A stretch of DNA of 46,669 nucleotides. Source: an uncultured Alphaproteobacteria bacterium. GTDB lineage: Bacteria > Pseudomonadota > Alphaproteobacteria > Rhodospirillales > Rhodospirillaceae. The stretch's first letter is position 1. Each line of letters begins with the position of its first letter. The notes beneath the pieces were generated by a model. That model was not told where the DNA came from. It saw only the letters and a list, made by a program, of their open reading frames with translations, and ran no database searches. Shown in pieces: positions 14,477 to 44,779 of this stretch. The stretch spans positions 1-46,669 of the forward strand of contig CACGTM010000008.1 of the NCBI GenBank assembly GCA_902575965.1. Direction: 5' to 3'. A program made the position numbers and the translations under genes.

Positions 14477-14487
14477 TAGTTAATGAA

Positions 14488-15102: not shown

Positions 15103-15266
15103 TCTCTGAGTATTTTTAGAAATAATTTTACTTTTAGTTTTTTTATGTTTTTAAATGGGTATGCTATAGTTTTTCATAATTTTGGCTTATGTGAAGATAT
15201 TTAAGCTCGCCTAATGACCACTTAGATAATTTATTTGATTTTTTTTGAGTATTTAATAATGATAAC

Positions 15267-15316: not shown

Positions 15317-15337
15317 ATTAATAGTTTAGGTGAAATT

Positions 15338-15724: not shown

Positions 15725-15725
15725 A

Positions 15726-16713: not shown

Positions 16714-17004
16714 ATGACTACTCTAGTATTTGTTGACCTAAAACCCAATAGTAATGATAAAGATGCCTTATTAGAGTACTTAGGGTCTATAATTGAGGAT
16801 ACAAGAAATTATGATGGGTGCCAATTTTGCGACGTTTACTTAGAAGATGATGATGTAGGAATGATTTTTGTAGAAAATTGGGAGAGTAAAGCCCATTACG
16901 ATAAATATCTCGCATGGCGGATAGAGACCGGTGTAATGGAAAAATTAGGAGGGTTTTTAGCGGCTCCTCCGATTATCAGATTCGCTGAAAAAAGCAGTGT
17001 ATGA
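16714..17004 (+). CDS. ABM-domain (antibiotic biosynthesis monooxygenase-like) protein
   Basis: A 96-residue protein of the dimeric alpha-beta barrel type (PF03992, YgiN-like). Visible features are the first strand LVFVDLKPN, YDGCQFCDVYLEDDDVGMIF and the hallmark VENWESKAHYDKYLAW. Such proteins act as cofactor-free monooxygenases or small-molecule binders, often on quinols. There is a strong ribosome site, AAAGGAG, before ATG 16714. It stands alone, with the convergent CopD-like gene behind it. Confidence 0.87.
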   Translation: MTTLVFVDLKPNSNDKDALLEYLGSIIEDTRNYDGCQFCDVYLEDDDVGMIFVENWESKAHYDKYLAWRIETGVMEKLGGFLAAPPIIRFAEKSSV

Positions 17005-17083
17005 GTTATCTAATTCTAATTTCTATTATGAAATAGCTTCATAGTTCTCGTGCAACTTAAAAATTTAGATTTGTTCGTAGACC

Positions 17084-17770: not shown

Positions 17771-17834
17771 ATTTCTTATTCCTTACTATTTTTCTACATT
17801 ATAATAATATTTAAATTTGAAAAAATAAATATTA

Positions 17835-23710: not shown

Positions 23711-23712
23711 TA

Positions 23713-24576: not shown

Positions 24577-24596
24577 TGGATATATAGGTGTGATTT

Positions 24597-25097
24597 ATGG
24601 AAGATTTACTTGAAGATACAGTATTAATTCAGCTTAGAATAAATGGTAAATACCACGAACTTGAAATTTCTCCATCAGTTTCGCTTTTAGATCTTTTGAG
24701 GGATGAATTAAATTTTAAAGGTACTCATATGGGGTGCATGACTGGCCATTGCGGGGCATGTACAGTAATGATAAACGGTAAGACGGCTAAATCATGTATC
24801 ACTCTTGCGTCCACACTTTCCAATGTTGATATTACAACAATAGAAGGCCTTTCTGATGAGGAGGGAAATTTAAGTCCACTTCAAGAATCTTTCTGGAATA
24901 CTGCTGGATTTCAGTGTGGATATTGTGCGCCTGGGATGCTTTTTCTAACTAAAGAACTTTTAGAGGATAATCCAAATCCAACTGATGATGAAATTAAAAC
25001 AGCTTTAGAGGGTACACTCTGTCGTTGCACAGGTTACCAAAGCCTTATAAGAGCTGTGAAAGACGCTGCAGAAAATATATCTGCTTCTAAAAGTTAA
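24597..25097 (+). CDS. Molybdenum hydroxylase 2Fe-2S subunit
   Basis: The 166-residue small subunit (CoxS type) with two [2Fe-2S] clusters. The plant-ferredoxin-type site is GCMTGHCGACTV near residue 46 with a further Cys in KSCITLAS, and the C-terminal helical domain has CGYCAPGM and LCRCTGYQ. All expected cysteines are present. About fifteen extra residues precede the usual start (ILIQLRINGKYHELEI region). It completes the three-subunit enzyme and is followed by the ureidoglycolate-lyase-like gene after 17 bases. Confidence 0.94.
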   Translation: MEDLLEDTVLIQLRINGKYHELEISPSVSLLDLLRDELNFKGTHMGCMTGHCGACTVMINGKTAKSCITLASTLSNVDITTIEGLSDEEGNLSPLQESFWNTAGFQCGYCAPGMLFLTKELLEDNPNPTDDEIKTALEGTLCRCTGYQSLIRAVKDAAENISASKS

Positions 25098-25114: not shown

Positions 25115-25678
25115 ATGAGCAATAAACCTGAAGTAAAAACAATACAGGTGCAAAAAGCAACACCTGAAGCACTTAAACCATATGGTGATATTCTTGGATA
25201 TGATGAAACGGTAGAACCAATGCCAATAGAATTCTATGGAGGGGCTGCAAAAGTTAGGCGCGTTGCAGATTTTGTTTCACAAAGTCCTACGGAGATGCCA
25301 GTTGTTACACTGCAGAGACGTCCACTTGATGTAAGGTGGATGGAGAGACACTTCAAACATACGCAAGCATTTATTTCTTTAGGATCAAAACCTTTTGTTG
25401 CTTGTTTTGCTCCCCCAAATGACAAAGAGCTTCCTGATTTAGACAAAGTTGAAGCGTTCTTATTTGATGGCAGTAGTGGATTTGTTATGAAAATTGGTAC
25501 ATGGCATGAGTTTCCTTTTGCTTTAGTTGATAATACAAATATTTTAGTTATTCTTACAAAAGAAGCTACAGAAGGTTTGGTAAAAGATAATGTCGTTCAG
25601 GACGAGGCGTTGAGTTCTGACTTAGAAAAGAAAGATCTTTTAGCCAGAGAAAATATTACTTTCCGGTTAGCTCTTTAA
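25115..25678 (+). CDS. Ureidoglycolate lyase-like (AllA superfamily) protein
   Basis: A 187-residue cupin-fold protein of the PF04115 family. It matches AllA at KATPEALKPYGDILG, at MERHFKHTQAFISLGSKPF and at the WHEF block (KIGTWHEFPFALVD), the last corresponding to the conserved GxWHxP turn. AllA splits ureidoglycolate into glyoxylate and urea. The sequence is longer and more acidic than AllA, so the substrate may be another ureido or amide acid. Ribosome site AAAGGA before ATG 25115. It follows the Mo hydroxylase and precedes the aminotransferase, consistent with a step after ring opening. Confidence 0.8.
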   Translation: MSNKPEVKTIQVQKATPEALKPYGDILGYDETVEPMPIEFYGGAAKVRRVADFVSQSPTEMPVVTLQRRPLDVRWMERHFKHTQAFISLGSKPFVACFAPPNDKELPDLDKVEAFLFDGSSGFVMKIGTWHEFPFALVDNTNILVILTKEATEGLVKDNVVQDEALSSDLEKKDLLARENITFRLAL

Positions 25679-31396: not shown

Positions 31397-31972
31397 TTAA
31401 TTACTTCTTTTTACTGGACAAACATCTTCCTTTGTTACCAGATCAAAAACAAATAAGTATTTAGCCATGCCGGTTAATACGGCTGTTACAAAACCCATCT
31501 CAACAATCTGTTCGTCATCATAATATTTTTTTAGTCTTGAATACAAATCTTTTGTTAATTCTCCGCTCATATTTTGTAACATCATTTGCTCAGAAAGTTC
31601 TATTACACACAAGTCTTTTTCATCAAAGAAATCTGAGGATGGATTAGGAATATTATCTATTTGTTCTTGAGTGATCCCTGAAGCTAATGCATCTACTGAA
31701 TTCCATTTATTGCAAAAAAAACAACCATGTTGTTTTGATAGTTTTAGTCTAAGAAGTTCTTTAGTTCTCACATCAAGTTTCATATCAGGATTTTCATTGT
31801 AAAAAATTTTTTTGTAGAAACCTTCAAAATACCATTTCATCATTGGAGGACTGTTAGCAAAAACCTCAACGACATCGGCTTCACCTGAACGTGTCATTCC
31901 TAAGTCCCATACTTCTTGTGTATCTTTATCCATTTCATTACGAGGGACTCTTTGAAGGTGTGGGTTAGGCAT
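31397..31972 (-). CDS. Carboxymuconolactone decarboxylase (CMD)-family protein
   Basis: A 191-residue all-helical protein of the CMD/AhpD-like family. The redox pair is in KQHGCFFCNKWN near residue 80 (CxxC with the usual helical context), preceded by TKELLRLKLS, which resembles the REL segment of the family. CxxC members act as peroxidase-like or thiol-disulfide proteins rather than decarboxylases. The AAGGAG ribosome site precedes ATG 31972. It lies between two SDR genes on the same strand and may be co-transcribed with them. Confidence 0.85.
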   Translation of the reverse strand: MPNPHLQRVPRNEMDKDTQEVWDLGMTRSGEADVVEVFANSPPMMKWYFEGFYKKIFYNENPDMKLDVRTKELLRLKLSKQHGCFFCNKWNSVDALASGITQEQIDNIPNPSSDFFDEKDLCVIELSEQMMLQNMSGELTKDLYSRLKKYYDDEQIVEMGFVTAVLTGMAKYLFVFDLVTKEDVCPVKRSN

Positions 31973-32011
31973 TATGGTCTCCTTTATAAATTGATTAAAT
32001 TAAATTTTTCC

Positions 32012-32767
32012 TTAAAGTCCTACAGTAACACCGCCATCAACAGTTATTGTCTGACCCGTAATATAGCGCGCTTTGTTTGATGCCAGAAAAACAGCTACAT
32101 CAGCAATATCGGATGGATCACCAACTCTACCTAAAGGAATAGTTGGTGCAACCGCTTCTAAACCTTCCTCTCCAACAGAATGGACTGGGTCTAATGTTTG
32201 CGCTGTTCTAATAAAACCTGGTGCAATTGCATTGGCACGTATATGATCTTTTGCAAGTTCAATTGCTGTTCCTTTAACAAAACCCGTTACACCAGCTTTA
32301 GCAGCAGAGTAGGGAACATGTTCATCCCATCCATAAGTAGTTCCAACAACAGAAGCAAGACATACTATTGAACCTTTTTTTGCATCTCTCATCGCTGGTG
32401 CTGCAGCTCTTATTATTCTCATCATTCCTTTTAGATCAACATCTATTGTTAAATCCCATTCTTCATCTTTCATTGTTTTCATAGGTATCATTTTTGCAAT
32501 TCCAGCATTGCACACAACTGTATTTAACGGGCCATACTTTTTTTCAACATTTTTTATAACTGAATTGACTTCAGATGTTGACGTAACATCCATATGATGA
32601 AATTCCGCAGATCCACCATTATCAATAATACTTTTTGCAACATTATTACCTTCGTCTGAAAGTACATCTGTAACAATAACGTTATAATTACTTTCTGCAA
32701 AAGCAAGAGCAGTTGCTTTCCCAATTCCTATACCTGCACCCGAGATTATTACAGTAGAGTCTGACAT
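32012..32767 (-). CDS. Short-chain dehydrogenase/reductase (FabG-like)
   Basis: A 251-residue classical SDR with SGAGIGIGKATALAFA, CNAGIAK, the Ser in CLASVVG, the YSAAKAG pair and the family ending ITGQTITVDGGVTVGL. A strong AAGGAA site precedes ATG 32767. It is divergent from the alpha/beta-fold gene at 32873 and, with the CMD and other SDR genes behind it, forms the left arm of the large catabolic cluster. Likely oxidises a secondary alcohol. Confidence 0.92.
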   Translation of the reverse strand: MSDSTVIISGAGIGIGKATALAFAESNYNVIVTDVLSDEGNNVAKSIIDNGGSAEFHHMDVTSTSEVNSVIKNVEKKYGPLNTVVCNAGIAKMIPMKTMKDEEWDLTIDVDLKGMMRIIRAAAPAMRDAKKGSIVCLASVVGTTYGWDEHVPYSAAKAGVTGFVKGTAIELAKDHIRANAIAPGFIRTAQTLDPVHSVGEEGLEAVAPTIPLGRVGDPSDIADVAVFLASNKARYITGQTITVDGGVTVGL

Positions 32768-32872: not shown

Positions 32873-33658
32873 ATGATTAAGAAGGGATATGCAGATTGTT
32901 CAGAGGGGCAGATCCATTACAGAGTTTCAGGTAATGAGGGAAATCCCGTTGTTTGCTTTTTTCACCAAACTGCCAGTTCAGGTGTCATGTTTGAAAAAGT
33001 AATGAATATTATGTCTGATCAGTTTCATTGTTTTTCATTTGATAGTCCTGGGTTTGGTGGTTCTTATCACCCAAGTGAAATACCTAATATAGCCTATTTA
33101 TCTGATAAACTGATTGAAGCAATGAAAAGCTTATCCATCACAGAATTTCATGCATGTGGACACCATACGGGAGGATGTATCGCTCTAGAAATGCCTGGTC
33201 GATATCCTGAAATGGTTAAAAGTCTTTCAATCATTGGCCCAGTTCTCGTTAATGAAGCTGAAAAAAAAGAGTACATGAAAACATTTGTTAAACCTTTTGC
33301 AATTGAACCAACGGGTGATTTTTTAAATACAGCTTGGGAATATTTAAAAATGATAGGAGCTGCATCAAATACTCAACTTCACCACAGAGAACTCGTTGAT
33401 CACCTTATCGCGCATGAAACTATGCCTAAGGCATTTTCTGCTGTTTGGCAGCAGGATGTCGAGACACTTCTAAAAAATGTAGCGTGTCCTTTGATGATTA
33501 TGTGTTCAAAAGATGATGTTTTGTGGCCATTATTTGAAAGAACAGGAAGATTAAGACCAGATGCTAAACAATACATAGTTGGAGGAGCTGATTTTCAACC
33601 AGACAATGACCCTGAAGGTGTTGTTAATGGTCTAAAGGATTTTATAGAAAACCTATAA
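32873..33658 (+). CDS. Alpha/beta-hydrolase-fold protein with GHHTG elbow, cytoplasmic copy 1
   Basis: A 261-residue alpha/beta-fold protein without a signal peptide. The fold is plain (oxyanion strand VVCFFHQTASSG, DSPGFGG, and the acid Asp in SKDDVLWP), but the nucleophile elbow is GHHTG at residues 96-100, with His98 where Ser, Asp or Cys should be, and the C-terminal His of the usual triad appears absent (GGADFQPDNDPEG). It belongs to the same group as the proteins at 37084 and 37882, which share HQTASS and GHHTG. Ordinary esterase activity is unlikely; the role could be a lyase, isomerase, cofactor-free oxygenase or binding protein. Confidence 0.85.
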   Translation: MIKKGYADCSEGQIHYRVSGNEGNPVVCFFHQTASSGVMFEKVMNIMSDQFHCFSFDSPGFGGSYHPSEIPNIAYLSDKLIEAMKSLSITEFHACGHHTGGCIALEMPGRYPEMVKSLSIIGPVLVNEAEKKEYMKTFVKPFAIEPTGDFLNTAWEYLKMIGAASNTQLHHRELVDHLIAHETMPKAFSAVWQQDVETLLKNVACPLMIMCSKDDVLWPLFERTGRLRPDAKQYIVGGADFQPDNDPEGVVNGLKDFIENL

Positions 33659-34633
33659 AGTAAAAACAATTGATCCTGTTGTTTTTCTATTCATTAGATC
33701 TTTTAAAGCTTCAGGTGCATCATTAAGATTATAAAGAGACCCTGGTTTTGGATTTATGTTGTTAGAATCTATCATTTGAAAAACATCATTCATTGACTCA
33801 AGAAAGGTCTCTCTTTCTGCATTAAAAGCAAAGACTGATGGCCTTGCGATAAAATTTGAAAATGTTACGGGAACAGTGCTTAAATCAATAGGTGGGAGAG
33901 GACCTGATGCCTGGCCAAAGGTAACAAACATTCCTGTGGGTTTGAGTGCTTTAAAAGAGTTCTCGTACGTGTCCTTTCCAATACCATCGTAGACAACATC
34001 GATGCCTACTCCATTGTTTATTTTTAAAATTTCATCTGCAAAGTTTTGATCTTTGTAGTTAATGACGTAGTCACAACCTGCATCTTTTGCGATCTTTGCT
34101 TTTTTATCACTTCCTACAGTTCCAAAAACTGTTGCTCCTAGGCTTTTGGACCACCGTACAAGAGAGTCACCGCTACTCCCAGCTGCAGCATGCACAAGAA
34201 CTTTTGTATCAGAGTTAACAGGATATACTTTTTTGACCATCATTTGGGCAGTAAGTCCTGCTATCATGATAGCTGCAGCATCTTCAAATGAGAGAGAGTC
34301 GGGAATTTTAACCGCATATCCTGGCCACATATTCCTTATGGATGAATAGGCACCAAGAGGAGGACCACCGTATCCAATGCGGTCTCCCACTTTAAAATCT
34401 TTTATTTCATCTCCAAGTTGTGTAATTACACCAGCTCCTTCGACGCCGGGTGTCAATGGGTAAGGGTCAATGTTGTATTCACCACTAATGACATATGTAT
34501 CGATATAATTAACGCCTACTGCATGATTTCTTACCTGGATTTCATGCGGGGCAGGTGATTTTATATCAATATTCTCTTTAATTATTGAGTCAATACTGCC
34601 TGGTTCTTTTACAACCCATCGATAATCTTGCAT
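33653..34633 (-). CDS. qor: Quinone oxidoreductase (zinc-independent MDR, Qor)
   Basis: A 326-residue medium-chain reductase of the Qor type. Typical sites are VGVNYIDTYVISGEY, PGVEGAGVI, GDRIGYGGPPLGAYS, the NADPH-binding segment VLVHAAAGSSGDSLVRWSKS and GSDKKAKIAKDAGCDYVINY. No structural zinc Cys cluster is visible. It reduces quinones or alpha,beta-unsaturated carbonyls with NADPH. The stop overlaps the stop of the convergent alpha/beta-fold gene by 6 bases. The cupin gene lies upstream on the same strand, with a long hairpin between them. Confidence 0.9.
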   Translation of the reverse strand: MQDYRWVVKEPGSIDSIIKENIDIKSPAPHEIQVRNHAVGVNYIDTYVISGEYNIDPYPLTPGVEGAGVITQLGDEIKDFKVGDRIGYGGPPLGAYSSIRNMWPGYAVKIPDSLSFEDAAAIMIAGLTAQMMVKKVYPVNSDTKVLVHAAAGSSGDSLVRWSKSLGATVFGTVGSDKKAKIAKDAGCDYVINYKDQNFADEILKINNGVGIDVVYDGIGKDTYENSFKALKPTGMFVTFGQASGPLPPIDLSTVPVTFSNFIARPSVFAFNAERETFLESMNDVFQMIDSNNINPKPGSLYNLNDAPEALKDLMNRKTTGSIVFTL

Positions 34634-34746
34634 TTTTTATACCCTTCTAAAGAACAACACTCTACTTGATTCAAAGCTCATAACAATTATATACTAAGCG
34701 ATATAAAACATTGTAATAATTGAGAAAATGAATTTCAAGTAATCGT

Positions 34747-34816
34747 GTTGGTGGATTCTATTTCAAAACAGTGTTCTGAAATAGAATCATAAGTAAATTA
34801 AATTACAACCAACATA
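34747..34816. promoter_or_regulatory. Nested inverted repeat between cupin and qor genes
   Basis: A perfect 12-bp stem (GATTCTATTTCA at 34754-34765 and its complement at 34777-34788, 11-base loop) is nested in an outer pair GTTGGT (34747-34752) and ACCAAC (near 34808). It lies in the gap between two minus-strand genes. There is no T-tract after it on the minus strand, so an intrinsic terminator is not supported; an operator, an attenuator or an mRNA-stabilising hairpin fits better. Confidence 0.55.
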
Positions 34817-34821
34817 GCTAG

Positions 34822-35262
34822 CTATTTATTGAGCTTTGCAACACTATCCGCAACTGGGATGGGATATCGTGGATTTGGATAACAAATACACAAGTGGCGG
34901 AAGGGTTCATCACTCAGTACTCTCCAAATAATTCTTGCTCCCTGAGGAAGGAGGTAAACAGAACCAGGCTTTGCTATGACTTTACCTGATTCAATCATTA
35001 ATGGTGGAAGAAAATACTCAATTTCTGCTTCACCAGAGACCACAACCTGGACTTCATCATGTGGCATTGACCAGCCAATATCCATACCTTTGTAAAAATC
35101 TTCATAATTTATCTGTGTAGATGGTTCATCAATGCCCGTATTAATAGCCCTAAATTTTGAGCCTGGATGAAATGGAAATTCCAAATCAGGTGCGTCATCT
35201 AAATCACTATCAACTGGATCATAAATTTTAAATTTTGACCAAGTAATTTCTGGTAAACCCAT
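34822..35262 (-). CDS. Cupin protein, cytoplasmic copy
   Basis: A 146-residue single-domain cupin without a signal peptide. It has the first cupin motif in MPHDEVQVVVSGEAEIEYFL near residue 75 (metal His and Glu candidates), KPGSVYLLPQGARIIW and the second-motif His in FRHLCICYPNPRYP. It is a clear paralogue of the Tat-exported cupin at 42694-43278: the PHDE, PGxVY and FRHxCxC blocks and the final PNPRYPIPVADSV/SPNYPFPTAEQV end correspond. Ribosome site GGGGAGA upstream. Divergent from the FAD oxidase. Metal-dependent isomerase or dioxygenase activity is possible. Confidence 0.82.
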   Translation of the reverse strand: MGLPEITWSKFKIYDPVDSDLDDAPDLEFPFHPGSKFRAINTGIDEPSTQINYEDFYKGMDIGWSMPHDEVQVVVSGEAEIEYFLPPLMIESGKVIAKPGSVYLLPQGARIIWRVLSDEPFRHLCICYPNPRYPIPVADSVAKLNK

Positions 35263-35472
35263 GCTTTATCTCCCCACGTAAAGTAAAAAAAAAATGTTTT
35301 TAATAGTTGAAGCCAAATAAAACCCTTAAATTATTGTAAAAATTAGATAATTTTATTTCTTCAAGAGTTGTTTAAATAGTTGGCAAATTCTAAATTAGGT
35401 GGCAATAATAGATAGATCAATAACAAAAATGATATTTCAATAAAAATATATTTTTTGAGGGAGAGAGAGACC

Positions 35473-37065
35473 ATGGATGCAAAATTAAGTAGTGCTGATG
35501 ATAGTTTAATTTCACAATTAAAGCAGCTTGTGGGAAATGACCATGTTCTCACTGAGGAAAAAGATAGAGATTTCTATTCTACTGATTTAAGTTTTAGAGA
35601 TAGAGAGATAGCTGCTGTCGTTGTACAGCCAGGTGATACGGAGCAATTATCAGGATGCGTACAAGCTGCTGTTAAATCAGGAATGTCTGTGGTCGCTCGT
35701 GGAGGAGGTATGTCATATACATCTGGCTATACTCCTGAAAAACCGGATACAATGCTGTTGGATATGCGTCGGATGAACCGCGTCCTGGAAGTTAATACTG
35801 AAGATATGTATGTAACTGTAGAGTGTGGATGCACTTGGGAAGCTCTTTTTGAAGCATTGAAAGATAAAAAAGTAAGAACACCTTACTGGGGCCCACTTTC
35901 AGGAAAGTACGCCACAGTGGGTGGTGCATTATCACAGAACAGTTTATTTCATGGATCAGGAGTTCATGGAACTGTCGCAGATAGCGTAATTGGCCTTCGA
36001 GTAGTTCTTCCGTCCGGTGATGTCCTTCAAACTGGCTCTGGCGCTCACAAAGAGTCAAATGCATTTTGGAGACATTTTGGACCAGATTTAAGCGGAATTT
36101 TTACTGCAGATACGGGAGCATTTGGTGTAAAAGCTGTTGCAACGTTAAGATTGATTCCAACTCCTCCATCAACTGCTTATATGGCTTTTAAATTTGATAC
36201 TCTGAAGGATGTCCTGGAGGCCCAAGTAAAAATTTCTCGATTAGCTATAGCCTCAGAATGCTACATGTTTGACCCTTATTATAATGCCGGTTTTGAAAAA
36301 CAAGGTATAACTTTCACAGAAGGTATATCCATAGTTGGAAAGGTAGTTAGAAAAGGAGGATTAAAAGGTCTAGCCTCAGCAGCAAAAATGGCTGTTAAGG
36401 GACAAAAAATCTTAAAGAATGTACCTTATTCATTACATATGACTTTTGACGCGTTAACAGATGTTGTTGCAAACGAACACCAAGAGATAGCTGCAGACAT
36501 ATGTTTAGAACACAATGGGACTGAGATGGATAATTCAATTCCAACTGTCTTCAGAGCTCAACCGTTTGCTGGTGTGAGAACAGTACTTCTTGGTTCAGAA
36601 GGAGAAATATGGCTACCCGTTCATGGTTTCTTTCCATTATCAAGGGCGGTAGATGCTGGTGCAGCTACTGAGAAGTGGCTTGAAGAAAAACGTCCTATAC
36701 TTGATAAGTACAACATTAAAACATCTTATTTAACATGCAACGCAGGTCCAGAGTTTGTTATTGAACCAAGTTTTTATTGGCATGATAAATTAGGTGACTT
36801 TAGGCTTAGTCTTATAGAAGAAGAATTCGCTGAGAAATGGAAAGATATTCCTGAGGATGTTGAAAAAAGAAAAGTTGTACTTCAATTACGTGAAGAACTC
36901 CGTGACCTCTTTGATAGTCTTGGCGCATGTCATCTCCAACTTGGTAAGTATTACAAATACAGTGAGCTTATGAATAATGATACTCTCTGGAGTGTTATAA
37001 ATGGAGTAAAAGATGTTCTTGACCCTGAAAGAAAAGTTAATCCTGGTTCACTTGGGTTAAGATAA
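35473..37065 (+). CDS. FAD-linked oxidase (PF01565-type), copy 2
   Basis: A 530-residue flavoprotein of the same family as 6954-8516. The FAD domain shows VVARGGGMSYTSGYTPE near residue 78, VECGCTWEALFEAL, PLSGKYATVGGALSQN and DTGAFGVKAVATLRLI; the C-terminal domain ends DVLDPERKVNPGSLG. The start at ATG 35473 has GAGG 12 bases upstream and is preferred to TTG 35455, which lies before that site. It is followed after 18 bases by the GHHTG protein copy 2, so oxidation of an alcohol or lactone-like substrate may be coupled to that protein. It is more GC-rich than the surrounding genes. Confidence 0.88.
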   Translation: MDAKLSSADDSLISQLKQLVGNDHVLTEEKDRDFYSTDLSFRDREIAAVVVQPGDTEQLSGCVQAAVKSGMSVVARGGGMSYTSGYTPEKPDTMLLDMRRMNRVLEVNTEDMYVTVECGCTWEALFEALKDKKVRTPYWGPLSGKYATVGGALSQNSLFHGSGVHGTVADSVIGLRVVLPSGDVLQTGSGAHKESNAFWRHFGPDLSGIFTADTGAFGVKAVATLRLIPTPPSTAYMAFKFDTLKDVLEAQVKISRLAIASECYMFDPYYNAGFEKQGITFTEGISIVGKVVRKGGLKGLASAAKMAVKGQKILKNVPYSLHMTFDALTDVVANEHQEIAADICLEHNGTEMDNSIPTVFRAQPFAGVRTVLLGSEGEIWLPVHGFFPLSRAVDAGAATEKWLEEKRPILDKYNIKTSYLTCNAGPEFVIEPSFYWHDKLGDFRLSLIEEEFAEKWKDIPEDVEKRKVVLQLREELRDLFDSLGACHLQLGKYYKYSELMNNDTLWSVINGVKDVLDPERKVNPGSLGLR

Positions 37066-37083
37066 TTTTATAAGGAAAATTTT

Positions 37084-37881
37084 ATGTCCAATATAAAAAA
37101 AGGTTATGCAGATTGTTCAGACGGTCAAATACATTTTCACAAAAATATAGGTGAGGGAACTCCAATAGTTTTTCTGCATCAAACTGCAAGTTCTGGAAAA
37201 ATGTTTTATAAAGTAATGGATCGCTTACCAAACGTTCTTGGTTATGCATTTGATACACCCGGTTTTGGAAATTCATTCAGTCCTTCTGACTCACCTGTCT
37301 TAGACAAACCCTCAATGCCGCAATTGGGTAAGTGGATTACTGAGGCAATAAACTCACTTGGCATTGAAGAGTTTCATATAGTTGGCCATCACACAGGCAC
37401 TTGTATTGCACTTGAAGTTTATAATTTAATTTCTGAAAGAGTTAAGTCATGCACAATGATAGGGCCAGTTCCTTTAACAGAAGATGAAAGAAATGAATTT
37501 AGAAAGTATTATTCATCTCCATTTTCACCCGATAAGAATGGAGATTATATTAAGACAACCTGGGATTATTTAGCAGGTCTTGGAATAAAATCTGACCTTG
37601 ATCTTCATCATAGAGAATTTATTGATACATGCAGAGCCTACCTTGGCCGCGCTCAAACATATTCAGCTGTTTGGGATCAGGATTTTGTTGCTCTTTATAA
37701 AAAAATGGAATGTCCGCTTCTTCTCATGGCAGCTCCTGATGATGTATTGTATCCTTATCTTGATCGAGCACATAAAATGAAACCAGATTCAATTATTAAA
37801 CCGATAGAGGGTGCCAATTTTGAACCAGACCATGACCCTGATGGCACAGTGGCTGCTCTTAAAAGTTTTTTAAATATTTAG
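37084..37881 (+). CDS. Alpha/beta-hydrolase-fold protein with GHHTG elbow, cytoplasmic copy 2
   Basis: A 265-residue paralogue of 32873-33658, starting with an almost identical KKGYADCSDGQIH segment. It has LHQTASSGKMF, DTPGFGNSF, GHHTG at residues 101-105 (His103 in the nucleophile place) and the acid Asp in PDDVLYP; the C-terminal His is again missing (EGANFEPDHDPDG). No signal peptide. It sits between the FAD oxidase and the Tat-exported paralogue, whose ATG follows immediately after its stop, so the three genes are one operon. Confidence 0.87.
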   Translation: MSNIKKGYADCSDGQIHFHKNIGEGTPIVFLHQTASSGKMFYKVMDRLPNVLGYAFDTPGFGNSFSPSDSPVLDKPSMPQLGKWITEAINSLGIEEFHIVGHHTGTCIALEVYNLISERVKSCTMIGPVPLTEDERNEFRKYYSSPFSPDKNGDYIKTTWDYLAGLGIKSDLDLHHREFIDTCRAYLGRAQTYSAVWDQDFVALYKKMECPLLLMAAPDDVLYPYLDRAHKMKPDSIIKPIEGANFEPDHDPDGTVAALKSFLNI

Positions 37882-38859
37882 ATGAAAGAAATTAAAATGA
37901 AAAAATTAAACTCTCTCGTTAAAAGAAGAAGCTTTGTTGTAACTAGTGCATTTGCAGCCGCATATGCAAGCATGAAATATACACCTGCAAATGCAATGGG
38001 CTATGTTGATGAAGCAATGAATTATTTTAATTCTGAAGAAGACACGCCATTAATTTTAAATCCCGGAACAGTGATGCGTCTTGATTATGTTGATACTCCT
38101 TTAGGTCAGATACATTATCGTCATAAACAAGGTTCAACTGAACACTCACCTATTATTTGTCTCCATCAAACAGCTAGTTCATCTGCTATGTTTGAAAAAT
38201 TTGCAGCGGCTTATCAAGGGCCAGAAAGTATTTACGCTATTGATACCCCTGGTTTTGGTGGGTCATATGATCCATCCAATACTCCAACTATGAGTGAGTA
38301 TGGGGCTGCAATTTTAGATGCAGTAAAAGCTCTTGGTTTTGAAAAATTTCATTTGTTTGGTCATCATACAGGCGCATCAATAGCTATTGAGATTGCAGTA
38401 AGCGCTCCTCAGAATGTTGCTTCATTAATGATGATTGGTCCAGTCGTATTAACAGCAGAAGAAAGAGCTTTGTTTGGACAAGTTTATCCAAAACCTTTTG
38501 AGCCAAAAGCTGACGGTTCACATCTTAAAGTTATGTGGGATTATGTTGAGAGCATTGGTGGAAACTCTGATTTGAATTTACATCACAGAGAGATGATTGA
38601 TACAGCTAGAGCTTGGCAAGGTCATATAAAAATGTATCAAAAAATTTGGGACCAAGATTTTTCTGCTATGTATAAAGATGTTATTGTTCCAATGCTTATT
38701 ATGTGTGCCGAAAAAGATATTTTATGGCCTATGTTTGATCGAGCAAAGCAGATGCGTCCTGATGCTGTGGCAAAGGTTATTCCTGGTTCAAACTTTGAAC
38801 CTGATGAAGCCCCAGTTGAAACGGCAGAAGCTATTCAAAGTTACTTAAGCTCTTTATAA
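37882..38859 (+). CDS. Alpha/beta-hydrolase-fold protein with GHHTG elbow, Tat-exported copy
   Basis: A 325-residue paralogue of the two preceding proteins with an N-terminal extension of about 60 residues. The extension has a twin-arginine signal (VKRRSFVVTSAFAAAYA, Arg15-Arg16) and a predicted cleavage near ANA-MG. The fold has LHQTASSSAMF, DTPGFGGSYDPS, GHHTG at 160-164 and the acid Asp in EKDILWP; again no C-terminal catalytic His (PGSNFEPDEAPVE). ATG 37882 directly follows the previous stop; ATG 37897 is an equally possible start. It would place the same chemistry in the periplasm. Confidence 0.86.
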   Translation: MKEIKMKKLNSLVKRRSFVVTSAFAAAYASMKYTPANAMGYVDEAMNYFNSEEDTPLILNPGTVMRLDYVDTPLGQIHYRHKQGSTEHSPIICLHQTASSSAMFEKFAAAYQGPESIYAIDTPGFGGSYDPSNTPTMSEYGAAILDAVKALGFEKFHLFGHHTGASIAIEIAVSAPQNVASLMMIGPVVLTAEERALFGQVYPKPFEPKADGSHLKVMWDYVESIGGNSDLNLHHREMIDTARAWQGHIKMYQKIWDQDFSAMYKDVIVPMLIMCAEKDILWPMFDRAKQMRPDAVAKVIPGSNFEPDEAPVETAEAIQSYLSSL

Positions 38860-38862
38860 TTT

Positions 38863-39270
38863 TTATCCTGGTGAGGCATGGTTGATATGAGAGAGCATTG
38901 TACTAGTGTGCAGTGTTCCACATTTCCAATTACCCTTAGTGAGATAACATACGCAAGATAAGACCGAATGTCTTTGCCTAAAGCCTTGATTGTTAGGTTT
39001 CCCTCTCACTGTAAGATCTGAAGTGATAAGTCCTGTGGTATCAAAAACTTGAAATGATGGTTTCCGAATAACCCACTCTAAGTTGTTCATATTATTTCTT
39101 AGATACTCTGTATGATCTTTATAAGATCCTTTATCTAATATAAAAGGGATGTCTTCATTTATCATAAGAGATTGTGGGTCAAAAAAATTATAAAAATCTT
39201 CTATCTTCCCGCCCTTTCCAAAAGCTGAAATAGCTTTATTGAAATCTCTTTCTAAATTTTTTACACTCAT
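38863..39270 (-). CDS. NTF2/SnoaL-like protein, cytoplasmic copy
   Basis: A 135-residue protein of the NTF2-like (SnoaL, ketosteroid-isomerase-like) cone fold: an N-terminal helix (DFNKAISAFGKGGKIEDFYN), EDIPFILDKGSYKDHTEYL, the shared RGKPNNQGFRQRH block and a final beta strand with C-terminal ASPG. No signal peptide. It is the partner of the exported gene 39280-39786; the ribosome site AGGAAAA overlaps that gene's stop, so translation is coupled. Such folds act as isomerases, hydratases or binding domains. Confidence 0.78.
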   Translation of the reverse strand: MSVKNLERDFNKAISAFGKGGKIEDFYNFFDPQSLMINEDIPFILDKGSYKDHTEYLRNNMNNLEWVIRKPSFQVFDTTGLITSDLTVRGKPNNQGFRQRHSVLSCVCYLTKGNWKCGTLHTSTMLSHINHASPG

Positions 39271-39279
39271 TGTATTTTC

Positions 39280-39786
39280 CTAACCTGGTGAAGCTTCTAA
39301 AATATGTCCATCAAATGGGCTTTGGTGCCAATTGATAATTCGCCATCCATTATCAAACTTGTGCCATCCTTGAGTGAATGCCATGTGTCTTTGCCTATAA
39401 CCTGAGTCAACTGGTTTACCTCTAAATGTTGCATGACTAACAACAATTCCTGTTTTACCAAAAACTCTAAATTTTGGATTTCTATCTTGCCATTCGAAAG
39501 ATTCCCAAATTCCACCAATGTGAAAATCTATATGATCTTTAAATCCTGACTTACTAAGCCTAAAGGGAATATCTTCATCAATGATTATGGCCTCATCATG
39601 TATGAGCATGTAAAAGGTTTCTAAATCTCCCGTTCCTAACGCCTTGTCTAAGGTGTAGAAAGCATCTTTTAGTCCGTTCATATCAGCGTGATTATCAGCT
39701 TTCGCATTCGAGATGATACCAAACGTGCTTGTGCCAATAACTGCAGCTGTGGATAAAAGTTTTCTTCTGGTTAAATCTTTACTCAT
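39280..39786 (-). CDS. NTF2/SnoaL-like protein, Tat-exported copy
   Basis: A 168-residue paralogue of 38863-39270 with an N-terminal Tat signal (LTRRKLLSTAAVIGTSTFGI) and cleavage after NAKA. The shared core is DIPFRLSKSGFKDHIDF, RGKPVDSGYRQRHMAFT and the same C-terminal ASPG. It is the first gene of a two-gene minus-strand operon facing a TonB receptor, across an intergenic region with a perfect 20-base palindrome. The exported/cytoplasmic pair parallels the GHHTG and cupin pairs nearby. Confidence 0.82.
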   Translation of the reverse strand: MSKDLTRRKLLSTAAVIGTSTFGIISNAKADNHADMNGLKDAFYTLDKALGTGDLETFYMLIHDEAIIIDEDIPFRLSKSGFKDHIDFHIGGIWESFEWQDRNPKFRVFGKTGIVVSHATFRGKPVDSGYRQRHMAFTQGWHKFDNGWRIINWHQSPFDGHILEASPG

Positions 39787-39849
39787 ATGAGAAAATTTCC
39801 TTAAAGTTGTTGATATAATTCCTATTATATACTCATAGTTATGAACAAA

Positions 39850-39869
39850 TTGTTGTAATATTACAACAA
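39850..39869. promoter_or_regulatory. Perfect 20-bp palindrome, operator candidate
   Basis: TTGTTGTAATATTACAACAA is its own reverse complement. It lies in the 286-base divergent region between the exported NTF2-like gene (64 bases upstream of its ATG) and the TonB receptor (about 204 bases upstream). Length and symmetry fit a dimeric regulator of the TetR, GntR or LacI kind. No regulator gene is seen in the window. The remaining intergenic sequence is AT-rich with nothing else I can name. Confidence 0.6.
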
Positions 39870-40072
39870 AAAATAAAAATTCATATTAACGACCATAATA
39901 TGAAAATAATACTACAAAAGTCACTTAAATAATCATATAAAAATAACTCTAAATACGGGTATTAATAGAAAAATAGTTTTTTCTAATGTAATTAAAATTA
40001 TTTTTCACCAAATTTAGTATTTATATTTTATTTACATTCGTCTTAGTGAAGCTATTTTGAGGGACTTCAAAT

Positions 40073-42367
40073 ATGAAAAGTTTTATTAATAAATTTAAAG
40101 GCATTGCTATTTTTGCAATCTCTGCCTTTATTTCTACTTCTTCTTTTGCACAAGTTTCAATTGAAGAAATTATTGTTACAGGTTTGAAGCGTGATGCTTC
40201 AATTCTTGATGCACCCGTCGCAGTTACTGTGTTTAGTGCTGATCAGATAGAAAAGGCAGGAATTACAAGACCTGAAGATTATCTAGCTCTTGTTCCCAAT
40301 GTTGGGTTCGTTACATCTAACCACCAAGGTGAATTTTTTGTTAACATGCGTGGTATGGCAACAGTTAGGTTCGCAGAAGCAGCGGTTGCTGTTGTTGTTG
40401 ATGGTATCCAACTGGCTATCAATAATGAATTCAATATGGATTATTTCGATATCGAACAGCTTGAAGTTCTAAAAGGACCACAAGGAGCGTTGTACGGACG
40501 TAATGCTACTGCAGGTGCAATCATTGTAAAAACGAGAGATCCTGGTGATGAGTGGAATGGTACAATGATGGCGTCTTATGGAAATTGGCATTCATCTAAG
40601 ATTCAAGGCGGAGTTGGTGGTCCAATTAACGACAAATTTAAAATGAGACTTTCTGCTTCTATGACGAATTCAAATGGTCCTTTCACAAATGAATACACTA
40701 ATGAGAAGGTTCATCGTTGGGCAAATAACTCTGGACGTATTCACCTTCTTTATGAAGATGAAAATACAAGAGTTGATTGGAGAGCTTCAGGAAGTAAAGG
40801 TAATGGTGGCGCAATTGCTTTTAATGCGCAAATTGCTGGTACTGTAACAGGAGGTTATCCTGTTATTGTTGATACTAATGATGTTCATAATATTCCATAT
40901 GTTAATGATATGCCTGGTGAGAATAGACAGTATAAATTTTCAACTTCTTTAAAAATTACTCATGAAACAGAAGATTTAAAATTTGAGTCTATGACTTCTT
41001 TCTCAGATATTAGAGATTACTATCAGGCTAAAGGTTTACCATACGCTGATTATTCAAATCCTGATAATGATTACGGTGTTTTTGAATTTGTGTTTGGTGA
41101 TACAACTCAGCAGTGGAGAGACTCAAACCAAGCAGCGATCCAAGAGTTTCGTTTAAGTTCAAACGTTGACTCAAGGCTTCAGTGGCAAATTGGAGCTTTC
41201 TTCATGAAAGGTACTAAGCAAAGAGTTAACACTAATGGTCTCTATACTGGAGCAACTGCACTTCCATGTTATTTCAACGGACCATGCGGTGGACCGAATT
41301 CATCAAACCCAACACTTAACTATGATAACACCCAGTTTGGTTATGAAAACTATTCACCATTTGGTAACATACAGTATGAAGTAAGTGATGCATTAGACAT
41401 TACTCTAGCTGTTCGTTATGAAACTGAAAAGCGTGAAGTTGAAACAATGCCTCAAAGTAATGTGCCTGACCTAGTAAATGGCGCAGCTACTTATAACCAA
41501 TGTGTTCTTAGAACAGGAAGAGCTCCTGCTGACTGTAATGATGATGCTACTTTTAAACAGTTCCAACCAAAAGTAACTGTTGCCTACAAGTTCCCTGATG
41601 ATGCAGGTCAAATTTTTGCTTCATATGGAAAAGGCTTTAAGTCAGGTGGTTTTAATACTATTGGTGTTAGGCAAATCCTTCTTGATGCAGCAGTAGCAGC
41701 AGGTGGTAATCCAAACTTGATTTTCACTCAAGATTCTTATGATAAAGAAACTAGTGATGCCTTTGAACTTGGTTTTAAATCACGCTTCTTAGATGGACGT
41801 CTTCAGATTAATGGTGCAGTCTTCATGACTGATGTTAAAGACGCTCAGCAGTTTGAGTTCTTCCCTGTTGGAAGTATCCAGGCTGTTTCAAGAATTGATG
41901 AGCAAGAAATAAAAGGTTTTGAAGCTGATATGCAATTTGCAGTAAATGACTCTTTTAGTATTTTTGCAGCATATGGGTATGTTGATCATGAAATTACTGA
42001 ACTACAAGCCCAACCTCTATTTGTAGGTAATAAGATTGCTTATATCCAAGACTGGAATGCAACAGCTGGTTATCAAGTTAATCATCCAATTTCATCTAAT
42101 TTGGACCTTGTGCATCGTTTAGAATACAAAGGCATGGGTCCAGTATGGTATGACTCAGGTAATCTAGCAGGTTCAAGGAGAGATACAGTCAATCTTATTG
42201 ATGCACGTATTGGTATTCAGTCAGATAACTATTCTCTAATGCTTTGGGGCCGTAACTTAGGTAATGAGAAATATGCAAGTGAAAGTGTACCTTTGCTTTC
42301 AATTGTTAATGTTCCTCATAAAGCTGCAACTAGAAGTTATGGAATTGAAGCAAGATATAATTTCTAA
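40073..42367 (+). CDS. TonB-dependent outer-membrane receptor
   Basis: A 764-residue receptor. Signal peptide MKSFINKFKGIAIFAISAF ending near SFA-Q, TonB box VSIEEIIVTGLKRDASILDA, plug with QLEVLKGPQGALYGRNATA near residue 135 and a barrel ending in YGIEARYNF. It is homologous to the receptor at 12086 but distinct. It is flanked by Tat-exported genes on both sides, and is followed by a strong terminator. It probably brings in the compound processed by the surrounding exported enzymes. Confidence 0.95.
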   Translation: MKSFINKFKGIAIFAISAFISTSSFAQVSIEEIIVTGLKRDASILDAPVAVTVFSADQIEKAGITRPEDYLALVPNVGFVTSNHQGEFFVNMRGMATVRFAEAAVAVVVDGIQLAINNEFNMDYFDIEQLEVLKGPQGALYGRNATAGAIIVKTRDPGDEWNGTMMASYGNWHSSKIQGGVGGPINDKFKMRLSASMTNSNGPFTNEYTNEKVHRWANNSGRIHLLYEDENTRVDWRASGSKGNGGAIAFNAQIAGTVTGGYPVIVDTNDVHNIPYVNDMPGENRQYKFSTSLKITHETEDLKFESMTSFSDIRDYYQAKGLPYADYSNPDNDYGVFEFVFGDTTQQWRDSNQAAIQEFRLSSNVDSRLQWQIGAFFMKGTKQRVNTNGLYTGATALPCYFNGPCGGPNSSNPTLNYDNTQFGYENYSPFGNIQYEVSDALDITLAVRYETEKREVETMPQSNVPDLVNGAATYNQCVLRTGRAPADCNDDATFKQFQPKVTVAYKFPDDAGQIFASYGKGFKSGGFNTIGVRQILLDAAVAAGGNPNLIFTQDSYDKETSDAFELGFKSRFLDGRLQINGAVFMTDVKDAQQFEFFPVGSIQAVSRIDEQEIKGFEADMQFAVNDSFSIFAAYGYVDHEITELQAQPLFVGNKIAYIQDWNATAGYQVNHPISSNLDLVHRLEYKGMGPVWYDSGNLAGSRRDTVNLIDARIGIQSDNYSLMLWGRNLGNEKYASESVPLLSIVNVPHKAATRSYGIEARYNF

Positions 42368-42396
42368 TTTAGATTTGAAATTATAATTGATATTAT

Positions 42397-42434
42397 AGGA
42401 CGTCATATTATTATAGTATGGCGTCCTTTTTTTT
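42397..42434 (+). terminator. Rho-independent terminator of the TonB receptor gene
   Basis: An 11-base stem (AGGACGTCATA at 42397-42407 and TATGGCGTCCT at 42417-42427, one G-T pair) with a 9-base loop, followed by a run of T (42427-42434). It lies 30 bases after the receptor stop and separates it from the small Tat protein gene. Confidence 0.9.
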
Positions 42435-42456
42435 AATGATTAAGAGATAAGTTATT

Positions 42457-42669
42457 ATGTTTAATAAGCTACAAAGAAGAACCTTTATAACAAAGATGGC
42501 TATGTTTTCTTCGGTGTTTACGTTTGGTCTAGGAAATTCAGCGATTGCGCACCATGATGAAGAAGCAATCGAACACCATGATGAAGAAGCAATTCAAAAC
42601 AGTGACCAGTCACCGAGGGATACAACTTTAAATAACACTGTATCCTTTCGAGGTGGAAGATTAATTTAA
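42457..42669 (+). CDS. Small Tat-exported protein with HHDEEAIE repeat
   Basis: A 70-residue protein: a Tat signal (QRRTFITKMAMFSSVFTFGL) and a mature part of only about 35 residues that begins with two copies of HHDEEAI(E/Q). The His/Asp/Glu-rich repeat is a plausible metal-binding segment. I do not recognise the family. It starts 89 bases after the receptor and 24 bases before the exported cupin gene; it may be a metal shuttle or accessory peptide for that cupin. Confidence 0.7.
   Translation: MFNKLQRRTFITKMAMFSSVFTFGLGNSAIAHHDEEAIEHHDEEAIQNSDQSPRDTTLNNTVSFRGGRLI
42550..42597 (+). repeat. 24-bp coding tandem repeat (HHDEEAIE x2)
   Basis: Two adjacent 24-base units, nearly identical except at the last codons (ATCGAA against ATTCAA), inside the small Tat protein gene. 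The repeat keeps the reading frame. Confidence 0.85.
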
Positions 42670-42693
42670 TACACGTCAAAGGAGTTTATAGAT

Positions 42694-43278
42694 ATGAGAT
42701 TTTCAAAAGAAGAACATAAGAAAGAAAATGATACTATTTCTAAAAGATTTAATGTTGGAAGACGACAAATTATTTCAGGAGGTACATTTGCAGCTGTAGC
42801 AGTTGCAGGAGCTGCTTTATCTTCAAAATCTAATGCTCAACAAGGCTTAGCTCCGTCACCAAGGTCATCTTTTGCAAGTCATTTAATTGATAATGATATT
42901 GCTGATAAGGCTCCTTCATTTGATTTACCATTTAACCCTGGTATAAAAATTAGAGGATATACCGCAATTAACGAACCAAATTGTCAAATTATAATTGAGG
43001 ATTTTTTCCCCGGTGACGAATTTGAATGGCAATTTCCTCATGACGAACAGCAATATTGTTTATCAGGTAAGATGGAACTAACTGTCTGGTTACCACCACT
43101 ATATTCAGAGAAAATTGAGACTGTAATTGTACCTGGAACAGTTTATAACTATCCAATTGGAGCAAAGAAAAAAGTTAAGGTTCTCGGTGACGAAGTCTTT
43201 AGGCATATTTGTTTCTGTCCGCCAAGCCCAAACTATCCATTCCCAACAGCTGAGCAAGTTAAAGAGTCAGCAACTTAA
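42694..43278 (+). CDS. Cupin protein, Tat-exported copy
   Basis: A 194-residue cupin with a Tat signal (NVGRRQIISGGTFAAVAVAG, cleavage near NAQQ). The cupin core has FPHDEQQYCLSGKMELTVWL (His and Glu candidates), VPGTVYNYPIGAKKKV and FRHICFCPPSPNYPFP. It is a paralogue of the cytoplasmic cupin at 34822-35262. AAAGGAG precedes ATG 42694. The flavodoxin gene starts 9 bases after its stop. Confidence 0.86.
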   Translation: MRFSKEEHKKENDTISKRFNVGRRQIISGGTFAAVAVAGAALSSKSNAQQGLAPSPRSSFASHLIDNDIADKAPSFDLPFNPGIKIRGYTAINEPNCQIIIEDFFPGDEFEWQFPHDEQQYCLSGKMELTVWLPPLYSEKIETVIVPGTVYNYPIGAKKKVKVLGDEVFRHICFCPPSPNYPFPTAEQVKESAT

Positions 43279-43286
43279 AGTGTTGT

Positions 43287-43943
43287 ATGGTTAGTGTTTC
43301 AATAGTGTATGACAGTAGTTTTAAAGGCCAAACAGAAGTCCTTGCTAAATGTGTTTTAGAGGGTGTTAGCTCAGTAGATAACATTCAAGGGCACATGATA
43401 CATGTTAATGATGTTGATGAACATTGGAACACTCTCCATAATTCTGAAGCCATAATATTTGGTTCTCCAACATATATTGGTGGTGTTACAGCTCAGTTTA
43501 AATTATTTATTGAAAAACTAGCTGGTGAAGTTTGGTTAAAAAGAATGTGGAAAAATAAATTTGCAGCCGGTTTTACGATATCTGCTGGTCGTTCTGGAGA
43601 CAAACTTAACTGTCTTACGGATATGGTTATCTTTGCTTCACAAATGGCAATGATCTGGGTGCCGCAACACATACTTGGTGGTAATTATTCAACTGCTGGA
43701 AGTGAGAAGGATTTAAATAGAATGGCAGGCTATCTTGGTGTTATGGCACAAGGAAATATAGATGAACCTGCTGACATATCCCCCCCAGAAAGCGATAAAG
43801 AAACTGCTCGAATGCATGGAAGACATGTTGCGCAAATAACAGCTCAATTTATAGAGGGTCAAAAGTCTTTGCCGTTCCAGGAAGAAGCTGCCTATGATTC
43901 AAAAGGTCAGGGCAGACCTTTGACCCTTCCAGAACTTTCTTAA
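43287..43943 (+). CDS. Flavodoxin-fold (WrbA-like) reductase
   Basis: A 218-residue flavodoxin-like protein, probably an NAD(P)H:quinone oxidoreductase or electron carrier. Features are the N-terminal SIVYDSSFKGQTEVLA (phosphate loop), EAIIFGSPTYIGGVTAQFKL near residue 55 (WrbA-type GSPTxxG) and the conserved WVPQHILGGNY. No signal peptide, so it is cytoplasmic while its neighbours are exported. No strong ribosome site before ATG 43287. Its stop overlaps the stop of the convergent Tat gene by 4 bases. Confidence 0.85.
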   Translation: MVSVSIVYDSSFKGQTEVLAKCVLEGVSSVDNIQGHMIHVNDVDEHWNTLHNSEAIIFGSPTYIGGVTAQFKLFIEKLAGEVWLKRMWKNKFAAGFTISAGRSGDKLNCLTDMVIFASQMAMIWVPQHILGGNYSTAGSEKDLNRMAGYLGVMAQGNIDEPADISPPESDKETARMHGRHVAQITAQFIEGQKSLPFQEEAAYDSKGQGRPLTLPELS

Positions 43944-44680
43944 ATATCAGGTGATGCTATAATTGATCCATGAGCTACGCCATATGTCTCAGAAGGTCTA
44001 TTGTTGGCAACTCTTGAATAACTCATTGCATTTTCCATATACGATAAAGAAAAATATTTAAACCTTATATCACCAAGAACCGATTCTGATACTTCATAAA
44101 CCTGCTGATTTTTATTTGATGGAATCATATTAATTGATGGCATGAATGCAACATCATTTGATTTAACATCTTTATCACCACTGACATGGGAACAAAGGTA
44201 AACTTGATAGTTCTTTTGCATTTCTTCAGCTGTTGCTTTTGGATATCGTCCCCAGCTTTCTGTCCAGCCTTGTGCAAATTTTGCAACCTCAGGGTTTCCC
44301 CAAACTTTATCTTTTGAATCAGCATCATCTAAATACATAAAGTCGAAGTGCGTGTAGGGAAAAGCGCAATCTGCAACTGATGAAACTTTCCAATTAGTAT
44401 AATGTTTAATACCTTCAATGCCATTAAAAAAAGGATTATCAATTTCTTGTAACCACTCATCATAACCTCTTGAGTTACTATCCTCTCTTGGAGTGTAAAC
44501 AAGAAGCATTAAGTCTCTTGAACCTTTTTTAGCTTTTTTATTCCCATGATGAGCTGCAGATAAAGTTTTTGGAATAATGCCTGTTGAGGCGATAACGCTA
44601 GCAGCTAAAACACTTCTTCTGGAAATAATATTCTCTTTTGAGAGAATATTTGAATATTTATTCTTGTTAATATCAGACAT
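43940..44680 (-). CDS. Tat-exported alpha/beta-barrel (EthD-like) protein
   Basis: A 246-residue protein with a Tat signal (IISRRSVLAASVIASTGI, cleavage near LSA). The mature part (LMLLVYTPREDSNSRGYDEW, NPFFNGIEGIKHYTNWKV) resembles the dimeric alpha-beta barrel group (EthD, Dabb, ABM), a tentative assignment. ATG 44680 is preferred over ATG 44695 because GGAG lies 9 bases upstream. Divergent from the bicupin gene. The C-terminus ends IIASPDI, close to the ASPG end of the NTF2-like pair; this may be chance. Confidence 0.7.
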   Translation of the reverse strand: MSDINKNKYSNILSKENIISRRSVLAASVIASTGIIPKTLSAAHHGNKKAKKGSRDLMLLVYTPREDSNSRGYDEWLQEIDNPFFNGIEGIKHYTNWKVSSVADCAFPYTHFDFMYLDDADSKDKVWGNPEVAKFAQGWTESWGRYPKATAEEMQKNYQVYLCSHVSGDKDVKSNDVAFMPSINMIPSNKNQQVYEVSESVLGDIRFKYFSLSYMENAMSYSRVANNRPSETYGVAHGSIIASPDI

Positions 44681-44779
44681 TTCATATTGCTCCATCTAAA
44701 AAAATAATCATATAATCCTGATGATAAAATATTTTTTAATACTCCGTAAATAGTATTTTTAATAAAAGAGGGTGAAATT

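Follow-up and report, generated by a model that had tools for sequence, protein, structure and literature searches.

Old enzyme pairs with apparently late Tat leaders in a catabolic gene cluster of an uncultured alphaproteobacterium

Contig CACGTM010000008.1 (C8), from an uncultured alphaproteobacterium of the Rhodospirillaceae, carries three enzyme families, each present both with and without a leader of the twin-arginine translocation (Tat) type. These are the GHHTG alpha/beta-fold proteins, the NTF2-like proteins and the cupins (Table 1). The contig was analysed in its entirety and is referred to here as the window (46.7 kb); the host genome comprises 1.37 Mb and is 58% complete. The locus raises the question of whether such a pairing of exported and internal enzymes is built into the pathway, or whether export signals were added to pairs that already existed. 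The pairing is real in this organism; it is not a fixed design of the pathway. It is fairly probable, in our judgement, that the pairs are ancient duplicates (clades A and B) within a conserved catabolic supercluster, that export came late and in particular lineages, and that the substrate is of an N-heterocyclic type. Comparison of sequences shows that clade-B members differ from orthologue to orthologue in whether a leader is present, and parsimony together with the trees suggests that most of the leaders are late additions. Export is apparently labile and recent for most members, with that of the cupin being of separate origin. The main interest that is left lies in the apparent stepwise gathering of Tat leaders by one lineage and in the unusual active site of the alpha/beta-fold proteins.

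Paired families and their leaders

An earlier reading of this DNA, made from the sequence alone and referred to here as the sequence-only reading, had described the three families as paralogue sets differing by a twin-arginine (RR) signal. An open reading frame (ORF) check of the window recovered every ORF that it had named, in the place given, and the paralogy was borne out. The two cupins share 44% identity and the two NTF2-like proteins 37%, while the alpha/beta-fold proteins show 47% and 38% identity to the sequence heading their alignment, whichever of two is placed there. One member of each family possesses an RR leader by motif. Tat leaders were called using our own motif script, not SignalP, the features sought being an RR leader, a hydrophobic region and an AxA-like site. 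The leaders of AB37T, NTF39T, CUP42T and the protein at 43940 pass this script with all three parts intact. TatC was also found in the genome of the window, and by these sequence features the four proteins are putative Tat substrates.

The script flags four of twelve genes of the cluster, compared to six of 361 ORFs in approximately 361 kb of the same genome, a sample of six contigs picked for their alpha/beta matches and hence not random. Four of those six flags were judged credible by eye, giving a Fisher p of 1.2e-4 (using six) or 4.1e-5 (using four) for a cluster region that was picked post hoc. A 70-aa peptide with an RR leader falls under the length floor of this comparison. For the leader counts among orthologues given below, all overlapping reading frames were kept. 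Flags judged false by eye fell on a transporter of the window, on two kinases outside it and on several proteins in relatives (for example, an RR within a sphingomonad alpha/beta domain, L171). The possibility that the leaders are artefacts of start choice was rejected, because in relatives the region immediately preceding the domain holds a stop codon or sequence unlike a signal, while the leaders of the window are open and complete.

Of the further components named by the sequence-only reading, the TonB-dependent receptor was confirmed by its receptor and plug domains, and the small Tat peptide corresponds to the 70-aa ORF. This peptide has no relative in the gathered loci and no Pfam match. 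It possesses histidine-rich HHDEEAI repeats and is encoded just before the Tat cupin; that it could serve as a metal carrier for the cupin is speculation. The further Tat protein, at 43940, has its RR leader by motif as described, and its identification as a barrel protein is weak. It shows no family match itself, HapK being matched in three of eight members of its alignment (best E 0.011), and a PDB search with it gave no match. A leader is present in one of seven orthologues of this EthD/HapK-like protein.

Pairs and leaders in other genomes

A scan of genome contigs identified 54 loci, six of which hold much of the cluster. Three belong to the window's own family (G024, G052 and G047) and have the gene order of the window; the other three are from gammaproteobacterial metagenome-assembled genomes (MAGs; L024, L025 of Halieaceae and L026 of Exilibacterium), in which the order is rearranged. 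The pairs recur in the window's family, in sphingomonads and in the three gammaproteobacterial MAGs. Both cupins were identified in four of 148 relatives and in the same four of 317 genomes of the order (window included), these being the genomes that carry the cluster. Cupin searches, from which the family of Exilibacterium was left out, detected both cupins in one of 140 genomes of the Halieaceae MAG's family and in one of 53 of the other gammaproteobacterial MAG's order, in each case the MAG itself. Five of 298 sampled genomes of the sphingomonad family carry a clade-B cupin, and four of these carry both. The NTF2 pair was found in three of 148 relatives; G047 has the cluster and gave no NTF2 match. 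In the stretches read, a related TonB receptor was present in nine of the eleven other genomes with a clade-B cupin, the Halieaceae and Exilibacterium MAGs being the two in which none was found. Co-occurrence of the pairs outside the window, which the sequence-only reading had named as a check, is observed. In G001, a genome of the window's genus that is 81% complete, queries for the alpha/beta, cupin and NTF2 proteins and for TatC gave no match, reflecting either loss or incompleteness.

Among the cupins, Cupin_2 was matched at an E of up to 0.1 in 16 of the 19 members of the family, with 1.8e-6 as the best value. CUP42T itself shows no Pfam match, the cupin domain being recognised via its relatives, and the HDE and RH motifs, candidates for metal-binding residues, are invariant in all 19 rows of the alignment. 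In the cupin tree, clades A and B are split with full support (100/100), and eleven of twelve genomes with a clade-B cupin also carry one of clade A. On this evidence the A/B split is old and would long predate the leaders. A leader is present in only two of twelve cupin B orthologues, those of the window and of the Halieaceae MAG. CUP42T pairs with the Halieaceae Tat cupin as its sister (100/100), not with the orthologue of its own family. The two lie within a set of six (95/91), the other four members of which are leaderless sphingomonad proteins. Forcing CUP42T together with the orthologues of its own family costs 39 log units and is rejected by the approximately unbiased (AU) test (p=3e-5; grouping chosen after the tree had been seen), and with it simple vertical inheritance of the Tat cupin. 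The sequence-only reading had stated that independent acquisition of the pairs, combined with their absence elsewhere, would speak against it; the separate history of the Tat cupin agrees with the former, while the pairs do occur together in other genomes. A plasmid search using the Tat cupin gave no match. In the PDB, the cupin profile finds its best match in MncA (2vqa; whole-chain E 3e-5, best single stretch 0.03), which, like CucA, is a periplasmic cupin of a cyanobacterium. MncA is sent through Tat so that folding and metal loading occur in the cytoplasm, and PMC4192464 describes the contrast between Tat and Sec export. The likeness is at the level of the cupin fold only, as the window cupins are A/B paralogues in a catabolic cluster and ten of twelve B orthologues are leaderless.

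The NTF2-like proteins match SnoaL_3 in eleven and DUF4440 in ten of 14 family members (Pfam), and the model of the window protein matches NTF2 folds (Z about 15-17, root-mean-square deviation about 2-3), which places it in the superfamily, where it groups among dehydratase- and LinA-type folds. Functional inference here draws on the fold, because a PDB sequence search with the protein alone gave no match and its profile only two weak ones. The clade-B protein has an RR leader in four of seven orthologues (three by script, that of Halieaceae by eye), and one further orthologue has a hydrophobic leader without RR. The Exilibacterium leader has a single arginine; it was marked as Tat in the tree and left out of the RR count. 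The window and its sister genus have the NTF2 B leader in common. In sphingomonad G332 (L174, 11896-12892) the RR leader, called by eye, is on the clade-A copy, the opposite paralogue to that of the window, and in the gammaproteobacterial G148 neither copy has a leader.

For alpha/beta B, the tree follows the family (100/98), though a leader is present in only one of seven orthologues, that of the window; the leader segment (37882-38073) is absent from all six others. In three relatives compared at the DNA level, the gene starts at an ATG approximately 10 bases past the stop codon of its neighbour. The window gene has 192 bp of leader ahead of an ATG at 38074 (codon 65), the codon that matches the start of the relatives. 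The ribosome-binding match of this ATG is weak (-3.5) and outranks that of 82% of 105 internal ATGs, while the two starts of the leader itself have almost none (1.3 and -0.9). Because ATG 38074 matches the start of the leaderless relatives, AB37T looks like a cytoplasmic gene to which a 192 bp leader was added, the old start codon surviving, and both an exported and a cytoplasmic product may be made from this one gene.

The locus offers what seems to be a natural case of export signals added to an existing pathway. Orthologues without a leader, the old start codon still in place and a leader on the opposite paralogue can be seen together, making stepwise re-compartmentalisation testable. Tentatively, and with considerably less confidence than in the late origin of export, we propose that one lineage moved a block of paralogous enzymes from cytoplasm to periplasm by successive grafting of Tat leaders. 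This would have split a pathway around a triad-less alpha/beta family with a histidine at the elbow, a site outside the variants of one classification section (PMC11878206, section 2.7), with both forms of AB37T possibly coming from one gene.

The GHHTG alpha/beta-fold proteins

All three alpha/beta-fold proteins match Pfam Abhydrolase, and the predicted model (predicted local distance difference test score 96) finds its closest folds among fluoroacetate dehalogenases (best Foldseek E 4.5e-17), which together identify an alpha/beta hydrolase fold. No Ser, Cys or Asp was found at the nucleophile elbow: in the four PDB profile alignments inspected, the GHHTG His takes the place of a Ser or Asp. 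Nor was the catalytic His after strand 8 found in the window proteins or in the close orthologues covering that position, which have Asn or Asp there; the Asn falls on the catalytic His of the PDB alignments where that part is aligned, and distant homologues differ at this position. With His at the elbow and Asn or Asp at the catalytic His position, it is unlikely that the GHHTG proteins act as Ser hydrolases; they may instead use His/Asp general-base chemistry. Fluoroacetate dehalogenases and esterase-type hydrolases are the closest to them in fold and in PDB sequence; however, the elbow Asp or Ser and the catalytic His of these enzymes are both absent from the window proteins. Cofactor-free oxygenases of the HOD type, as described in part of PMC10548524, share the alpha/beta fold and act on N-heteroaromatics through His-Asp base chemistry without a nucleophile as such, but HOD keeps the canonical His, whereas the window proteins have Asn or Asp there and His at the elbow.

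A 2024 classification of alpha/beta proteins lists, in the portion consulted, Ser, Asp and Cys nucleophiles, acid-His dyads and one serine-less protein (PMC11878206), and an arrangement with His at the elbow is not among the variants of its section 2.7. No word beginning with GHHTG occurred in the literature searched, a search that would miss the motif inside a longer word or a figure. Among 142 alpha/beta fold matches in the gathered loci, 96 have a GHHTG-type motif and 84 exactly GHHTG; these loci were fetched for similarity and the counts are no census. The script assigns a Tat leader to five of the 96 and a Sec-like leader to four. The window points to a family of alpha/beta-fold proteins with His in place of the nucleophile and, in close members, loss of the catalytic His.

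Cytoplasmic and Tat copies are also adjacent on contig C11 of the window genome and in relative G003, both copies being cytoplasmic in the remaining adjacent pairs listed. On C11 (L106, 26889-31228), three consecutive genes with RR leaders encode a flavin amine-oxidase-like protein, a DUF1838 protein and a GYHTG alpha/beta protein. A cytoplasmic GFHTG copy directly follows the last of these, giving a second exported/cytoplasmic alpha/beta pair in this genome. A plasmid search using AB37c gave five records, the best of which (37.5% identity) has no annotation in the matching stretch.

Substrate, compartments and alternative explanations

The surroundings of the pairs provide a putative catabolic context. 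Two genes for RutA-like monooxygenases flank those of a molybdenum hydroxylase, next to which a ureidoglycolate-lyase homologue is encoded. The monooxygenases do not reach RutA membership (368 and 398 bits against an NCBIfam equivalog cut-off of 498), although one matches RutA in the PDB with an E of 6e-90. The clusters of G024, G047, G052, the Halieaceae MAG and sphingomonad G324 contain matches to the RutA-like gene at 27 kb that score 522-651 bits, and the match in G005 scores 330 bits. Some sphingomonads, like the window's family, have the hydroxylase, the ureidoglycolate-lyase homologue or the RutA-like gene beside the cluster. Because of the RutA-like monooxygenases, the molybdenum hydroxylase and the ureidoglycolate-lyase homologue, taken together with the TonB receptor, gene content suggests that an N-heterocyclic or cyclic-amide compound is taken up and opened. 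The Rut pyrimidine pathway is similar in its monooxygenase, and the matches of the window alpha/beta proteins include RutD. It differs in that all window scores, including those to RutD, are below the equivalog cut-offs, the window alpha/beta proteins have no triad, and the window adds the molybdenum hydroxylase, an oxidase of VAO/GlcD type, cupins and TonB machinery. Narrow literature searches for this gene layout found none, and one on marine degraders led to a review of bile acids.

Under the preferred account of old duplicates with late export, approximately 21-46 kb of the window would form the conserved supercluster with its own TonB receptor. Its A and B cupins, A and B NTF2-like proteins and three GHHTG clades most likely serve different steps or intermediates. 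Cupin B would have given way to a Tat form akin to that of the Halieaceae MAG, and the leaders of alpha/beta B and the EthD/HapK-like protein would have arisen only in this lineage among those examined. In most relatives examined, alpha/beta B and cupin B presumably work in the cytoplasm; in the window organism, the B set and the TonB receptor would form an early periplasmic stage, with the A set working inside. Several points weigh against this account. Preferring gain of leaders over repeated loss is a parsimony argument drawn from a small number of genomes, of which many are MAGs. The Tat calls are based on motifs only, and the script misses the Halieaceae NTF2 leader (RRD) and the leader of the sphingomonad A copy (DRR), both called by eye. 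A VAO-type oxidase with NTF2-like proteins would also suit the catabolism of aromatic dimers. In addition, the four leaders are clustered far beyond expectation, which argues for some common periplasmic role here, as the sequence-only reading had proposed.

That reading went further, suggesting that one chain of reactions is run in both the periplasm and the cytoplasm, perhaps starting with a conjugate or polymer that is imported and going on to its monomer. The occurrence of four RR leaders and an RR peptide within 12 kb is in keeping with it, and the best remaining support is that one NTF2 copy is leader-bearing and the other leaderless in six of seven genomes (counting one leader without RR), even where the leader is swapped between paralogues, as in one sphingomonad. 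For the other families the exported/internal split is not kept with the pair: it occurs in one of seven genomes for alpha/beta B and two of twelve for cupin B, the B copy being leaderless in the remaining six and ten. Considered with the separate history of the Tat cupin and a cupin A/B divergence that came long before the leaders, this makes the two-compartment chain an improbable explanation. At the other extreme, the leaders could be incidental, drifting on and off without functional meaning, with some products partly made leaderless from internal starts such as ATG 38074. Their variation among orthologues and the better ribosome-binding match of that ATG are what this would predict, but four leaders in one cluster greatly exceed what the genome sample shows, and their RR, hydrophobic and AxA-like parts have been kept intact, leaving it very improbable.

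The remaining alternative concerns the substrate. A phenolic dimer could be taken up through TonB and degraded by a VAO-type oxidase and NTF2-like dehydratases that generate quinone methides and act on them. Among PDB chains, the FAD oxidase resembles those of the VAO/PCMH family, the NTF2 model falls among dehydratase- and LinA-type folds, and the relatives include a Novosphingobium. Enzymes of the NTF2 superfamily and the VAO/PCMH family act in lignin-dimer pathways, as portions of PMC12997858 describe, and a TonB receptor for an aromatic derived from lignin appears in a title cited there. On the other hand, the first NCBIfam matches of the FAD protein are of GlcD type, all of them below cut-off. 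No ring-dioxygenase family was seen among the proteins scanned, which were part of the ORFs (a cupin could be a dioxygenase), and the RutA-like and ureidoglycolate-lyase-like genes would be unexpected. Catabolism of aromatic dimers appears unlikely.

The genes discussed above and their neighbours are listed in Table 1.

Table 1. Predicted genes of the supercluster and its surroundings in the window
Feature	Position	Strand	Remarks
RutA-like flavin monooxygenase, 398 bits	19975-21045		Below equivalog cut-off
Molybdenum hydroxylase (xanthine/aldehyde/CO dehydrogenase type), large, medium and small subunits	21311-25097	+	Medium and small subunits named by reading translations
Ureidoglycolate-lyase family protein	25115-25678	+	
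RutA-like flavin monooxygenase, 368 bits	27075-28172	+	Equivalog cut-off 498
CMD-family protein and SDR	31397-32767	-	Both also in clusters of relatives
AB32c, cytoplasmic GHHTG alpha/beta-fold protein, 261 aa	32873-33658	+	Pfam, alignment, orthologues
Zinc-binding-dehydrogenase/quinone-oxidoreductase-like protein	33653-34633	-	
CUP34c, cytoplasmic cupin, clade A, 146 aa	34822-35262	-	Alignment, tree
FAD_binding_4 oxidase (VAO/GlcD-like)	35455-37065	+	In many relatives, adjacent to alpha/beta genes
AB37c, cytoplasmic GHHTG alpha/beta-fold protein, 265 aa	37084-37881	+	
AB37T, GHHTG alpha/beta-fold protein with putative Tat leader, 325 aa	37882-38859	+	Leader 37882-38073
NTF38c, cytoplasmic NTF2-like protein, clade A	38863-39270	-	
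NTF39T, NTF2-like protein, clade B, with putative Tat leader	39280-39786	-	Leader common to two sister-genus orthologues
TonB-dependent receptor	40073-42367	+	Receptor and plug domains; relatives in other genomes
RR-leader peptide, 70 aa	42457-42669	+	Two HHDEEAI repeats
CUP42T, cupin, clade B, with putative Tat leader	42694-43278	+	
FMN_red/flavodoxin-like protein	43287-43943	+	
Putative Tat-leader protein, HapK/EthD-like at best	43940-44695	-	Six orthologues without leader
Cupin-like protein, 347 aa	44780-45823	+	Cupin_7, below cut-off

Outside the supercluster, positions 1-18000 of the window hold a second catabolic-looking stretch with a pyrroloquinoline quinone (PQQ) dehydrogenase and another TonB receptor. 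A homologue of the FAD oxidase (6939-8516) and an alpha/beta protein with an RR leader (at 10938) are also encoded there.

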